Below, piece by piece: positions 57,816-62,993 of a stretch of 64,000 nt of DNA (its first letter is position 1; each line of letters begins with the position of its first letter). This DNA comes from an uncultured Methylobacillus sp. Its GTDB lineage: Bacteria; Pseudomonadota; Gammaproteobacteria; Burkholderiales; Methylophilaceae. The stretch spans positions 32,490-96,489 of the forward strand of contig CAMLDO010000005.1 in the NCBI GenBank assembly GCA_946478865.1. Reading direction: 5' to 3'. Below the pieces are notes generated by a model. It was not told the DNA's origin, searched no databases, and saw only the letters and a list, made by a program, of their open reading frames with translations. A program made the translations under genes and the position numbers.

Positions 57816-57874
57816 CATGTTAGCGGCCGGGAAAAGGCTGTCCATTACACGTAGGAGTTACTACTTACGGGGTA
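57816..57874 (-). promoter_or_regulatory. Promoter and 7-2-7 operator of dmd
   Basis: On the - strand the palindrome TACCCCGTAAGTAGTA spans 57874-57859. Thirteen bases from its end begins AATGGA, then a TGGACA -35 (57844-57839) and TAACAT -10 (57822-57817, 16-base spacer). The implied start of transcription leaves a leader of roughly 57 bases. Same architecture as four other sites in this region. Confidence 0.65.
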
Positions 57875-57966
57875 TCGGGACTGGGCGAAAACCGCGAGCG
57901 CAGCGGTGGAGCAGCCGGGAATGAAGTGGCAGGGCTGAGATGGCGGGATAGGCTTGGAGCAAGGAA

Positions 57967-58025
57967 TACCCCCATGGTAGTACTCCTTCAACACAATTAT
58001 TTATTGCCCCTATTGGGGGTAACTT
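57967..58025 (+). promoter_or_regulatory. Promoter and 7-2-7 operator of the flavin reductase-like gene
   Basis: Palindrome TACCCCCATGGTAGTA (57967-57982), then AATTAT exactly 13 bases on (57995-58000), -35 TTATTT (57997-58002), a 17-base spacer, and -10 TAACTT (58020-58025). The ATG at 58026 abuts the -10, so translation must begin further downstream, at 58068. Confidence 0.65.
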
Positions 58026-58067
58026 ATGCTCGACATTACGAGTGCAACTCATCCTCAGGAAACAACA

Positions 58068-58817
58068 ATGGAAACTCCCGAGACCCGGCAGGACCGCTTC
58101 GACGCCATTGTGCGCCGCATCGAACCACTGAACCACGACACCGTGGCCGTGAGGCTGGCTTGCCCGGATATTCCCCATTACCTGGCGGGGCAGTACCTCA
58201 AGGTGTTCCTCGACGAGCAGACGGTCCGCTACTATTCGCTCGCGAGCGCGCCGGGGATAGACGACGACCTGCTGCTGCATGTGCGGCGCGGGGCGGAAGG
58301 GTCTGCCAGCCGCTGGTTCCATGAAGTGCTGCAAGCAGGCGACAGCGTTGCCATCAGCGCGCCGCGCGGAGCATGCGGCTACCGCCCCGGGCAGCCGGAA
58401 CAGCCGCTGCTGATGGTGAGCACGGGCCCCGGGTTGGCGCCGTATTACGGTATTGCACGGGCGGCGCTGCAGCATGGGCATCATGCGCCCATCCATCTTT
58501 ATCATGGAGTGCGCTACGGCGAAGAGCTCTATCTCGTGGAGCAATTGAGCGCATTGGCGCGCCTGCATCCGAATTTCCATTACGTGCCGTGTATTTCCGG
58601 CGAAACGCCGGCGCCGGGTTGCCGTGCGGGACGAGCACTGGATGTCGCGCTGCGCGAAACGCCGCTGTCTTCCGCCTGGCGCGTTTATCTGTGCGGCCAT
58701 CCCGGCATGGTGGAAGATGGCTGGCAGCGAGCGATCCAGGCAGGGGTGATGCCGCACGCGATCCTTTCCGACCAGGTGCCGGACCTGGTCGCCCGCTTGG
58801 CTGCAATGGCGGCCTGA
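58068..58817 (+). CDS. Ferredoxin-NAD(P)+ reductase-like flavoprotein
   Basis: A 249-residue FAD/NAD(P)-binding reductase module without an iron-sulfur domain. FAD binding is by RYYSLAS (R-x-Y-S, residues 54-60). Pyridine nucleotide binding is by STGPGLAPYYGIA (near 120), and the C-terminal CGHPGMVE is typical of the FNR superfamily. ATG 58068 is preferred to the in-frame ATG at 58026, which touches the predicted -10 element; AGGA lies 10 bases upstream of 58068. It shares the operator of the amine dehydrogenase genes. It may regenerate or accept reducing power in methylated-amine oxidation, but the partner is unknown. Confidence 0.8.
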   Translation: METPETRQDRFDAIVRRIEPLNHDTVAVRLACPDIPHYLAGQYLKVFLDEQTVRYYSLASAPGIDDDLLLHVRRGAEGSASRWFHEVLQAGDSVAISAPRGACGYRPGQPEQPLLMVSTGPGLAPYYGIARAALQHGHHAPIHLYHGVRYGEELYLVEQLSALARLHPNFHYVPCISGETPAPGCRAGRALDVALRETPLSSAWRVYLCGHPGMVEDGWQRAIQAGVMPHAILSDQVPDLVARLAAMAA

Positions 58818-58831
58818 AGCCTTTCCCGCGA

Positions 58832-58855
58832 CCTTGGCAGGCATGCTTGCCAAGG
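58832..58855. terminator. Hairpin after the flavin reductase-like gene
   Basis: A near-perfect palindrome CCTTGGCA...TGCCAAGG with GCATGC at its centre. No T-run follows, so it may be a weak or factor-dependent terminator or an mRNA-stabilising structure. Confidence 0.45.
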
Positions 58856-58883
58856 GTGGAGAATTAAGATTCCGTTATCCAAT

Positions 58884-58942
58884 TACCCCTTTGGAAGTAA
58901 TCCCTATTGGGAATTGTAGTCATACGGCTGCAATCTGATGAT
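58884..58942 (+). promoter_or_regulatory. Promoter and 7-2-7 operator of the first permease gene
   Basis: Palindrome TACCCCTTTGGAAGTA (58884-58899) matches the NarL-type pattern TACYYMT-N2-AKRRGTA except for one base. AATTGT follows exactly 13 bases later (58912-58917), then -35 TTGTAG (58914-58919), 17-base spacer and -10 GATGAT (58937-58942). A leader of about 150 bases runs to the permease start. Confidence 0.65.
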
Positions 58943-58995
58943 GGAAGCAATGCGGTGTCGGTCCCAACAGATATAACTAACGTGAGGAGAGACCC

Positions 58996-60807: not shown

Positions 60808-60851
60808 GCTCCTTCCATCCCGTCTGTCCCTCCCTCGAGAGCCGGGATGTA

Positions 60852-60883
60852 AACGGGCGACTTCGGTCGCCCGTTTTTTTTTG
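60852..60883 (+). terminator. Rho-independent terminator after the first permease
   Basis: A 10-base perfect stem (60852-60861 with 60866-60875) closed by a TTCG tetraloop and followed by eight T residues. Confidence 0.95.
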
Positions 60884-60907
60884 CCTTGCATCGGCCTGAG
60901 AGGCGCT

Positions 60908-60966
60908 TACTACCAAGGTGGTAAGCCGTAGTGGGAATTGTTCTGAGGCGTCGATGCAAACAAGAT
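60908..60966 (+). promoter_or_regulatory. Promoter and 7-2-7 operator of the second permease gene
   Basis: Palindrome TACTACCAAGGTGGTA (60908-60923), AATTGT 13 bases on (60936-60941), -35 TTGTTC (60938-60943), 17-base spacer and -10 CAAGAT (60961-60966). It lies 140 bases before the start codon. Confidence 0.65.
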
Positions 60967-61105
60967 GACGACATATGCGATGGCCGTGGTTTCAGCAAGG
61001 TCGCCGCATCCGGAGGAGAGTCACTGACTCGTTAGAGGCGGCCCAGAAGATCCCGCGTGGACTGGTCGCCGGCCGAAACGAAATTCGTCATGAAGGGAAA
61101 TGCAA

Positions 61106-62812
61106 GTGAAAACACATGAGAGTAAAAGAGGCGCGATCACAGTCGACGCGTCCATGAGCGGGGCGCCAGCCGATGCCTCGCTGCAAAGATCGATCAACTG
61201 GACAGGCGCATTCTGGGTGGCAAGCGGCGTGCCGGCCCTGGTGCTGTTCTCGATGGGCGCGATTGCCGCCACCGTGGGCAAGCCGGCCTGGCTGGTGTGG
61301 ATGCTGTCCATCGGCTTCGGCTTCGTCCAGGCCTTTACCTACGCGGAAATTGCGGGGCTGTTCCCCAACAAGACCGGCGGCGCCTCGGTATATGGCGCGG
61401 TGGCCTGGGTCAAATACAGCAAGCTGGTAGCACCCCTGTCCATCTGGTGTAACTGGGTGGCCTGGTCGCCGGTGCTGTCCATCGGCGCAGGCCTGGCCGC
61501 CGGTTATATCCTGACGGCGCTGTTCCCGGCAGATGCCGCTATCAATACCTGGCAGCTCACGCTGCTCGATCTGGGCATGCTCAAGGAAGGCCTCACGCTG
61601 CGCATCAACGCGACCTTCATCATCGGTGCCGCATTGCTGCTGCTCGTCTACGCAATCCAGAACGGCGGCATCCTGCGCTCGGCCAAGACGACGATGATCC
61701 TCGGCCTGTCCGGTCTCGTGCCGCTCATGCTGATCGGTCTCGTGCCGCTGATCACTGGCGACATGCCGGCCGAGCATTTCTTCCCGCTGTCCCCGCTCGC
61801 CTACGACGCTGTCGGCAATGTGGTGGACGGGAAGTGGAATGCCGACGGCTGGGTGCTCATGGCGGGCGGCCTGTTCATTGCGGCCTGGTCGACCTACGGC
61901 TTCGAGACGGCGGTGTGCTACACCCGCGAGTTCAAGGATCCCAAGAACGATACCTTCAAGGCGATCTTCTATTCCGGTCTGCTATGCGTGGCGGTGTTCA
62001 CGCTGGTACCGCTCGCGTTCCAGGGCCACCTCGGCCTCGGCCAGCTCGTCACCCCGGCGGTGACCGATGCAAGCGGTGCCGTGACCAGTGCTGCAGTGTA
62101 TGACGGCATGCTGGCTCCGGACATCTACAGCGGCATGGGCGTCGCCAGTGCGCTGGCCGGTATCCTCGGCGGCAGCGCGTTCATCGCCAACCTGCTCATG
62201 GCGATGTTGGTGCTGGCACTGCTGCTGGCGATCATGACCACCATGTCGGGCGCGTCGCGCACGCTGTATCAGGGTGCCGAAGACGGCCTGCTGCCCAAGT
62301 TCCTGTCGCGCGTCAACGAACACGGCGCTCCGACCAGCGCGATGTGGACCAATCTCGGCGTCAACCTGGTGCTGCTCATGATGTCGGACTACATCTTCCT
62401 GCTCGCCGCGGCCAATGTCAGCTACATCATCTTCAATTTCCTCAACCTCAATTCCGGCTGGATCCATCGCATGGACCGCCCGAACTGGGAGCGTCCGTAC
62501 AAGGCTCCAACCATCCTCATCGTGCTGGGGACGCTGCTGGCTTTCGTCAACATCACGCTGATGGGTCTGGGCGCGAATATCTGGGGCGCGGGCACGCTCA
62601 TGAGCGGCCTCATCATGGCTGCTGCGGTGATCCCGATCTTCATGTGGCGCCACTACATCACGGACAAAGGCCAGTTCCCCAAGGCCATGCTCGAGGACAT
62701 GCATCTCAGCACCGACGAGAAGGGCGTTTCCACCCGTGCGGGCGTGCTGCCTTACCTCACGCTGGCGGCGGGCGCACTCATCGTCTACATCACCAGTTCG
62801 ATCGCTTCCTGA
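61106..62812 (+). CDS. APC-superfamily permease, methylated-amine regulon (copy 2)
   Basis: A 568-residue permease, same length as copy 1 and similar throughout except the first 30 residues and scattered positions. It keeps the same SGVPALVLFSMGAI, TYAEIAGLFPNKTGGASVYG and WSTYGFETAVCYTREFKDPK segments. GTG at 61106 is chosen over an ATG 6 bases upstream because AAGGGA then has a 7-base spacing and the two paralogues align. It arose by tandem duplication together with its promoter and terminator. Substrate specificity may have split between trimethylamine and dimethylamine; this is inference. Confidence 0.85.
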   Translation: MKTHESKRGAITVDASMSGAPADASLQRSINWTGAFWVASGVPALVLFSMGAIAATVGKPAWLVWMLSIGFGFVQAFTYAEIAGLFPNKTGGASVYGAVAWVKYSKLVAPLSIWCNWVAWSPVLSIGAGLAAGYILTALFPADAAINTWQLTLLDLGMLKEGLTLRINATFIIGAALLLLVYAIQNGGILRSAKTTMILGLSGLVPLMLIGLVPLITGDMPAEHFFPLSPLAYDAVGNVVDGKWNADGWVLMAGGLFIAAWSTYGFETAVCYTREFKDPKNDTFKAIFYSGLLCVAVFTLVPLAFQGHLGLGQLVTPAVTDASGAVTSAAVYDGMLAPDIYSGMGVASALAGILGGSAFIANLLMAMLVLALLLAIMTTMSGASRTLYQGAEDGLLPKFLSRVNEHGAPTSAMWTNLGVNLVLLMMSDYIFLLAAANVSYIIFNFLNLNSGWIHRMDRPNWERPYKAPTILIVLGTLLAFVNITLMGLGANIWGAGTLMSGLIMAAAVIPIFMWRHYITDKGQFPKAMLEDMHLSTDEKGVSTRAGVLPYLTLAAGALIVYITSSIAS

Positions 62813-62865
62813 TCGACGGCACAGGCTTCCCGTCCGCTCGCCCCTCTCGAGCGGATGGCGAAGGG

Positions 62866-62891
62866 CGGGCGGCCTTGTGCCGCCCGTTTTT
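62866..62891 (+). terminator. Rho-independent terminator after the second permease
   Basis: An 8-base GC stem (62866-62873 with 62879-62886), 5-base loop, followed by five T residues. Confidence 0.85.
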
Positions 62892-62934
62892 CATTGATTT
62901 TCCTTGGTTTTCCCGCCCATTCAGACGCGAGCTC

Positions 62935-62993
62935 TACCACCTTGGAGGTAAGTCGTAAGGAGAATTGTGAGGGGGAGGAGGCGTGCCGAAAAT
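62935..62993 (+). promoter_or_regulatory. Promoter and 7-2-7 operator of tmd
   Basis: Palindrome TACCACCTTGGAGGTA (62935-62950), AATTGT 13 bases on (62963-62968), -35 TTGTGA (62965-62970), 17-base spacer and -10 GAAAAT (62988-62993). The leader to the tmd ATG is about 40 bases. Confidence 0.65.

Follow-up and report, generated by a model that had tools for sequence, protein, structure and literature searches.

A conserved 7-2-7 palindrome upstream of trimethylamine and dimethylamine genes of methylotrophs and its likely NarL-type two-component system

We analyzed a 64,000-nucleotide stretch of DNA from an uncultured Methylobacillus sp. (contig CAMLDO010000005.1), referred to here as the window. 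Toward its end lie a dimethylamine dehydrogenase-like gene (dmd), a flavin reductase-like gene, two permease genes and the trimethylamine dehydrogenase gene tmd (Table 1). A first-pass annotation, made from the letters alone, had reported a 16-bp palindrome upstream of each of these five transcription units, followed at a fixed distance by an AATTGT-like block, and had proposed that one NarL-type activator turns on all methylated-amine genes from just upstream of RNA polymerase. Indeed, 16-bp palindromes were found at all five coordinates given there; on the better strand, TACYMCYNNRGWRGTA matched without mismatch at four of them and with one mismatch at dmd. Comparison with related genomes suggests that the sites are very likely operators through which a dedicated two-component system controls the use of trimethylamine and dimethylamine.

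When up to two mismatches to the 16-bp pattern were allowed, the window contained 13 strand-counted matches at seven places, while 100 shuffles gave 2.47 on average and none reached 13. For scoring, matrices were built from 45 non-redundant sites of other genomes, leaving out the window and its near relatives, the loci L006 and L007. The 45 sites were drawn from 71 in the vicinity of amine genes that matched the TAC-N10-GTA frame exactly and an inner consensus loosely. With the 16-base matrix, the top ten strand-rows of the window were the five palindromes (19.3 to 23.3 bits), the next match scored 11.4, and the maximum in the reversed window was 10.7. With the 34-base matrix, the palindromes scored 28.4 to 45.9, compared to 13.8 for the best unrelated place and a maximum of 9.8 in the reversed window. 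In addition, this matrix revealed a sixth place (51670-51703, plus strand; 28.2), which scored 31.4 with the 60-base matrix, above the dmd site (23.4). Thus, all five reported units hold, but a sixth had been missed. Its operator lies 283 bp ahead of folE2, which is followed in order by a ribBA-type gene, a DMT transporter gene and a small open reading frame (ORF).

A 16-bp match at 36535 was rejected as an operator; it scored 13.8 with the 34-base matrix, and a clear promoter block was absent. A riboswitch or other RNA element was also rejected, as no Rfam match reached the gathering score in 50500-64000. We conclude that the shared palindrome and its spacing are real, conserved and, at close match, specific.

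In Methylobacillus sp. MM3 (loci L007 and L156), the gene order is that of the window, and sites are present ahead of tmd, both permease genes, the flavin reductase-like gene and dmd. The DNA of the window is 80 to 86% identical to that of MM3 across the longest matches, and its dmd protein is 87% identical to a Paracoccus aminovorans plasmid gene product. The dmd start codon was set at 57752, because the upstream ATG at 57845 coincides with the final base of the operator region and alignments with homologs begin at MARDPRY.

Table 1. Genes, operator sites and predicted promoters at the amine locus of the window
Feature	Position	Strand	Details
folE2 operator dyad 1, TAACCACTTTGGAGTA	51670..51685	+	34-nt score 28.2; ahead of folE2-ribBA-DMT transporter
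folE2 operator dyad 2, degenerate	51684..51699	+	2-bp overlap with dyad 1; set-level frame test
Predicted folE2 promoter	51700..51728	+	-35 TTGAGG 51700-51705, -10 GATAAT 51723-51728, spacer 17; consensus match only
folE2, GTP cyclohydrolase FolE2	51953..52762	+	NF010200, 299 bits (cut-off 215)
ribBA-type 3,4-dihydroxy-2-butanone-4-phosphate synthase/GTP cyclohydrolase II (flavin synthesis)	52756..53892	+	NF010626, 601.7 bits (cut-off 513)
DMT/EamA-type transporter	53926..54993	+	PF00892; homologs adjoin amine genes in relatives
Small conserved ORF after DMT/EamA-type transporter	54990..55283		
dmd, dimethylamine dehydrogenase-like flavoprotein	55539..57752	-	1137 bits to trimethylamine dehydrogenase 1djn
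Predicted dmd promoter	57817..57844	-	-35 TGGACA 57844-57839, -10 TAACAT 57822-57817, spacer 16; consensus match only
dmd operator dyad 2, degenerate	57845..57860	-	set-level frame test
dmd operator dyad 1, TACCCCGTAAGTAGTA	57859..57874	-	pattern match and matrix
Flavin reductase-like gene operator dyad 1, TACCCCCATGGTAGTA	57967..57982	+	predicted -35 TTATTT 57997-58002, -10 TAACTT 58020-58025
FAD/NAD-binding flavin reductase-like protein	58068..58817	+	PF00970, PF00175
Permease 1 operator dyad 1, TACCCCTTTGGAAGTA	58884..58899	+	dyad 2 58898-58913; predicted -35 TTGTAG 58914-58919, -10 GATGAT 58937-58942
Permease 1, trimethylamine N-oxide permease family	59101..60807	+	NF053774, 855 bits (cut-off 690)
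Permease 2 operator dyad 1, TACTACCAAGGTGGTA	60908..60923	+	dyad 2 60922-60937; predicted -35 TTGTTC 60938-60943, -10 CAAGAT 60961-60966
Permease 2, trimethylamine N-oxide permease family	61100..62812	+	NF053774, 831 bits (cut-off 690)
tmd operator dyad 1, TACCACCTTGGAGGTA	62935..62950	+	dyad 2 62949-62964; predicted -35 TTGTGA 62965-62970, -10 GAAAAT 62988-62993
tmd, trimethylamine dehydrogenase, cut by window end	63037..64000	+	synteny with L007/L156 of Methylobacillus sp. MM3

Numbering the palindrome as positions 1 to 16, we compared 95 unique site sequences; some sites enter this logo in both orientations, and the counts in the text are taken from the 45-site set. Conserved were positions 1 to 16, a middle block (C20, T22, G26, R27, G28), A29 A30 T31 T32 G33 T34 and, more weakly, the A/T-rich positions 54 to 59, while the upstream flanks and positions 37 to 53 showed nearly no conservation. 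Both parts of the element described at first, palindrome and AATTGT block, are real, but the element is longer and includes the middle block. Recently copied DNA was rejected as an explanation for the shared site, because conserved blocks alternate with nearly unconserved spacers and flanks.

At all five palindromes reported initially, the block begins at the 13th base past the palindrome (12 bases between). It reads AATTGT at three of them, AATTAT at the flavin reductase-like gene and AATGGA at dmd. AATTGT, with up to one mismatch, was found 12 bases past the palindrome at 30 of the 45 independent sites, compared to 2/45 on the opposite side and at most three at any other offset. By class, it was present at permease 1 (10/13), permease 2 (1/2), DmmD-like (11/14), Tmd (7/9) and flavin reductase-like (1/1) genes. 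The permease 1 and tmd classes share the consensus TTGTNN, 17 bases, then TCAAAT or GAAAAT. A predicted start near position 66 would place the centers of the palindrome (dyad 1) and of the second dyad described below near -57.5 and -43.5.

The predicted -35 lies downstream of the site in all six window promoters, and their -35 and -10 elements are mostly poor consensus matches, as expected for activated promoters. Both features speak against the idea that the system represses the amine genes until an amine appears. NarL-type regulators are capable of repression, but we regard it as improbable here.

In a second-repeat test, half-sites were scored beyond the palindrome only. The 7-2-7 frame at position 15 was the best of 30 (-0.36 per position; next -0.77), compared to a mean of -1.32 (standard deviation 0.08) for shuffles and a 95th percentile of -1.17 for the shuffles' best frame. 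Therefore, a degenerate second repeat (dyad 2) probably occupies positions 15 to 30; this weaker 7-2-7 repeat would overlap dyad 1 and abut the -35. Alternatively, dyad 1 could be the sole regulator site and the middle block an extended promoter or a polymerase contact. We place this possibility slightly on the doubtful side of even: dyad 2 is degenerate, the two dyads would overlap by 2 bp, and frames 16, 17, 18 and 28 also exceeded -1.17, as any conserved block might. Moreover, in a separate half-site test, reverse half-sites at 23, 26, 27 and 29 scored above shuffles. The lead of frame 15 over the other frames and the shuffles argues for a second repeat.

The NarL heptamer consensus is TACYYMT, and the sites have the NarL-type operator form, two inverted heptamers of this kind with a 2-bp gap. 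The 7-2-7 form of NarL operators is described in PMC4549865, which places the E. coli sites at -40 to -49 (napF) and -38 to -47 (yeaR). The consensus of our sites is nearly equal to the engineered NarL site TACCCCTAAAGGGGTA in the same article. At E. coli ogt, NarL activates from -44.5, with a further site at -77.5 (PMC7419079). The amine promoters resemble ogt in having a 7-2-7 site near the -35 plus one upstream, and they would likewise be activated. They differ in that the ogt sites are 33 bp apart, whereas the proposed amine dyads overlap, with centers 14 bp apart.

In many relatives, a PAS protein, a HisKA_3 kinase and a regulator with a Response_reg receiver followed by a GerE DNA-binding domain adjoin the amine genes. 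The 75 loci collected (from the best 80 of 247 relatives) belong to Methylophilaceae, Methylophaga, Hyphomicrobium, Rhodobacterales, Paraburkholderia, Zoogloea, Ferrovum and others. The order of receiver and DNA-binding domain, found in the regulators of L056, L001 and L156, places them in the NarL/FixJ (LuxR-type) family. Amine-linked regulators have TVKVH[VI][KR][HN] as recognition helix, compared to TVKVHVKH in E. coli NarL.

We used the Methylovorus mays regulator as query and designated genomes with a match of at least 220 bits as regulator positive (33 of 57). In the first 14 genomes, an ortholog with 70 to 100% identity was found in 13, and the next matches had at most 45%. Among 43 further genomes, 20 had a regulator with at least 56% identity, two had matches at 49 to 50% and two at 41%, and 19 had none at E <= 1e-35. 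The ortholog was at least 65% identical in those Methylophilaceae, Methylophaga, Hyphomicrobium and Pseudogemmobacter genomes that carry one. In line with the first-pass annotation, searches of the window's ORFs with the regulator, kinase and PAS proteins gave no hit at E <= 1e-8, and a regulator inside the window was rejected. In Methylobacillus sp. MM3, the regulator is located about 16 kb past tmd, and the window's own genome presumably carries it beyond the window end.

Three peculiarities of the regulator loci were observed. The regulator match contains one in-frame TAG in G009 (C1:31272-31910) and G160 (C3:90463-91101). In Paraburkholderia (L037, L039 and L044), the amine cluster has a NarL-type regulator on either side, both 68 to 72% identical to the Azoarcus one. 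A Ferrovum-like assembly (L067:10001-14434) has two tandem trimethylamine dehydrogenase genes and a regulator with 59% identity, and a recognizable site is absent.

Sites and regulator were found to co-occur. Using leave-one-genome-out matrices on the fetched stretches around amine genes and a threshold of 18 bits, we detected sites in 31 of 33 regulator-positive genomes versus 2 of 24 regulator-negative ones (Fisher p 2e-11, a value overstated because the genomes are related). Scores were at least 22 where sites were present, and the best place reached at most 0.5 where they were absent; none of the 57 reversed upstream regions reached 18 bits (highest, 17.0). Joint loss was seen in two members of a single family: Methylotenera mobilis 13 (G018) and the isolate PB2.3.53 (G017) carry dmd and lack both the site and the ortholog.

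Equal frequency of the pattern in unrelated places had been named as grounds for dismissing the operator, and a genome scan was run accordingly. The composite pattern, with up to one mismatch, gave 84 matches in 31 of the 57 genomes, compared to 13 for the reversed pattern. Among regulator-positive genomes, 27 of 33 had such matches, 77 in total; 66 of these shared a contig with the regulator, and 64 were separated from it by no more than 40 kb. In 24 of the 27 genomes, a match lay 0.7 to 23 kb from the regulator. Of the regulator-negative genomes, 4 of 24 had a match. The specificity is limited to close matches, because with up to two mismatches (12 genomes) 67 matches were found versus 84 for the reversed pattern.

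Besides this count and the inflated p value, several points weigh against the proposed system. The leave-one-out matrices still include near twins of the omitted genome. No site was found in the regulator-positive G054 and G055 (the G055 contig is short), and no regulator in G005 and G053, two metagenome assemblies that have the site. The best regulator match is only 56 to 59% identical in Zoogloea, Ferrovum, Cupriavidus and G038, which makes orthology less sure there. Dmd promoters depart from the common form, with AATTGT in 0/6 and TGGAC in place of TTGT. A dyad centered at -57.5 is not a lone NarL activation position in the accessible parts of the literature examined. Finally, the regulator is known from the genomes of relatives, not from the window's own, and the case for binding consists of co-occurrence, linkage and the recognition helix.

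Since the site fits the NarL 7-2-7 form, the ordinary nitrate/nitrite system NarX-NarL might own the sites and couple amine use to denitrification. In line with this, the linked regulator passes the NCBIfam NarL cut-off of 250 bits (L056, 275.8; L001, 269.4) and is annotated narL in Azoarcus, and narG was detected in 11 of the 26 regulator-positive genomes examined for it. The linked kinases, however, do not fit. Pfam PilJ was absent from 8/8 tested, a strict P-box from 32/32 (partial motif in one, L170; bare G-x-x-R in six), while E. coli NarX was positive in both searches. The L056 kinase scored 236.0 bits against the NarQ cut-off of 553 and 204.9 against the NarX cut-off of 578, and the L001 kinase 228.6 and 208.2, respectively. 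Moreover, narG was absent from 15 of the 26 regulator-positive genomes and present in 3 of 4 regulator-negative ones, and napA was above cut-off in only 1 of these 30 genomes. A separate paralog, 41 to 45% identical, was located at most about 7 kb from narG in 10 of the 12 genomes that have the paralog and were searched for narG. A PilJ protein adjoins it in 4 of 10 genomes searched (G001, G003, G010 and G018), and the aligned paralogs have the recognition helix TVKIHVQ or TVKIHIQ. Given the missing sensor domain, the distribution of narG and the separate paralog near it, we rejected NarX-NarL as owner of the sites, a reading we consider highly improbable; the pair beside narG is the candidate for the true NarXL.

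The amine system thus resembles E. coli NarX-NarL in its Response_reg and GerE regulator with a near-identical recognition-helix core, in the near-identical 16-bp inverted heptamers and in its HisKA_3 kinase, where two predicted membrane spans flank a periplasmic stretch. Unlike NarX-NarL, it lacks the PilJ/P-box sensor, has an adjacent PAS protein and lies beside amine genes, not nitrate reductase; its promoters have a stereotyped fixed spacing and probably two overlapping dyads.

To define the regulon, we counted sites of at least 18 bits in 450 bp upstream of genes at selected loci of regulator-positive genomes and G005, leaving out the Paraburkholderia, Azoarcus and Paracoccus aminovorans loci and using a matrix that was not leave-one-out. 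Sites were concentrated at genes for amine uptake, amine oxidation, and flavin and folate supply: Tmd/Dmd 38/45, permeases 26/34, DmmD-like 15/17, FolE2 14/19, flavin reductase-like 2/2, Tdm 1/1, Tmm 1/1 and DmmA on its own 4/17, some counts being lowered because genes lie inside operons. In regulator-negative genomes, none was detected upstream of Tmd/Dmd (0/26), permease (0/11), MgdB (0/1) or DmmD-like (0/1) genes. Autoregulation by the same site was rejected, as the upstream regions of the response regulator (0/14), kinase (0/10) and PAS protein (0/12) genes had none.

The methylamine branch differed. MgdB (0/7) and MgdA (0/7) of the selected regulator-positive loci had no upstream site, and scanning the whole window with the 45-site matrix gave no high-scoring site at its N-methylglutamate (methylamine) genes (37383-46907). 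Control of all methylated-amine genes, as first proposed, is therefore too wide: it holds for the trimethylamine and dimethylamine units but not for this branch, which by its lack of sites is outside the regulon and seems to be separately controlled. In the window (36635-37258 and 37383-46907), N-methylglutamate pathway genes for methylamine adjoin a gene for their own XRE-cupin regulator.

Of 21 distinct genomes in which the region upstream of folE2 was readable, 16 had a site there, one of them marginal (18.1); counted by entries it was 19/24, three being second copies of the same genome. In Methylobacillus sp. MM3 (L178), it is 280 bp ahead of folE2. The shared operator at folE2 and the ribBA-type gene suggests that flavin and folate supply would be induced together with the flavoprotein amine dehydrogenases. 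Upstream of folE2 in the window is a glutamine amidotransferase-like gene (50973-51686); a gene with the same best family match (L188, 7043-7771) adjoins dmm and XRE-cupin genes.

In an evenly drawn sample of 120 genomes of the family of MM3, the regulator was found in 26 (E <= 1e-60), Tmd or Dmd in 21 (E <= 1e-200) and both in 18; three had the enzyme only (G005, G018 and G053) and eight the regulator only. The regulator is therefore not strictly tied to Tmd/Dmd, a further point against the proposed system. The surroundings of the regulator were fetched for seven of these eight genomes (not G143), and in all seven sites were present ahead of a permease 1 homolog (74 to 84% identical) and a DmmD-like gene. 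In L183 (6262-13077), sites also precede the gene for trimethylamine monooxygenase Tmm (831 bits, cut-off 675) and one for a trimethylamine N-oxide demethylase-like (Tdm-like) protein (1039 bits, below the cut-off of 1100). The same sensor genes are present there and trimethylamine dehydrogenase is absent; DmmA-family proteins are encoded in both clusters examined for them, those of L183 and L188. Two unrelated chemistries thus have the same operator, and what unites them is the substrate.

This bears on the possibility that the sites belong to a different, unlinked regulator, with the NarL-type system only traveling along with the amine genes. Linkage and co-occurrence alone are no proof of binding, but site and regulator stay together in genomes with amine enzymes of another kind, the half-site fits the NarL heptamer, and the linked regulator has a NarL-like recognition helix. 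An unlinked regulator is thus unlikely, and we retain the linked one. In two genomes without Tmd/Dmd, operator-like sites (L186:2786 and L194:6457) precede Gcw_chp/TorF-like putative porin genes (L186:1663-2514 and L194:6769-7596), a possible further target.

Among the open-literature matches listed, which exclude most subscription papers, no operator or regulator for trimethylamine or dimethylamine dehydrogenase genes is described, as the first-pass annotation had supposed. No operator or two-component system for tmd/dmd genes was found in the accessible parts of PMC13390433, PMC4543880, PMC3925955, PMC8199190, PMC4549865, PMC9314961, PMC1805755, PMC11526790, PMC6256518 and PMC7419079. TmaR/TmoR of Ruegeria pomeroyi controls trimethylamine and dimethylamine catabolic genes, including tmm and tdm (PMC13390433), and in this resembles the regulator proposed here. 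It has an AraC-type DNA-binding domain, whereas the linked regulator has Response_reg and GerE and so is not of the AraC type; a word search of the main text of that article returned none of two-component, NarL, LuxR or trimethylamine dehydrogenase. DmfR of Paracoccus aminophilus is, similarly, a LuxR-family activator of a C1-amine-related catabolic operon, but its targets are dimethylformamidase genes and it is not called a two-component regulator in the accessible text (PMC4543880). Rhodobacterales loci L022 to L029 contain dmd, most also tmd, and neither operator nor regulator ortholog; a GntR/FCD gene is near in L025. An AraC-type stand-in in regulator-negative genomes found no support in ten hand-picked ORFs of L022, L025, L029 and L057, none of which had an AraC domain.

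Taken together, the data support the proposal of one NarL-type activator acting from just upstream of RNA polymerase. We envisage that a membrane kinase, built like NarX but without the nitrate domain, would sense a methylated amine or a product of one, probably assisted by the adjacent PAS protein, and would phosphorylate the NarL-type response regulator. The regulator could then bind dyad 1 and, more weakly, the overlapping dyad 2 that ends at the -35, and recruit RNA polymerase to the poor promoter TTGTNN-N17-NNAAAT. In its broadest form, toward which we lean slightly, the proposal is of a three-protein methylated-amine sensor (PAS protein, NarX-like kinase with a new ligand domain and NarL-type regulator) that family models now call NarL and that spans Alpha-, Beta- and Gammaproteobacteria. 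Via two overlapping 7-2-7 repeats running into the -35, it would command unrelated trimethylamine and dimethylamine routes (flavoprotein dehydrogenases or Tmm/Tdm/Dmm), uptake, and flavin and folate supply.

Trimethylamine dehydrogenase has long been studied, and a specific regulator, kinase and site can now be named as candidates for the control of its gene. The genome comparisons give good support for a NarL-type two-component system for amines and provide candidates for an amine-responsive promoter and sensor. Most likely, the protein family labeled nitrate regulator NarL includes a clade that is an amine regulator, which bears on the reading of methylotroph and denitrifier genomes.

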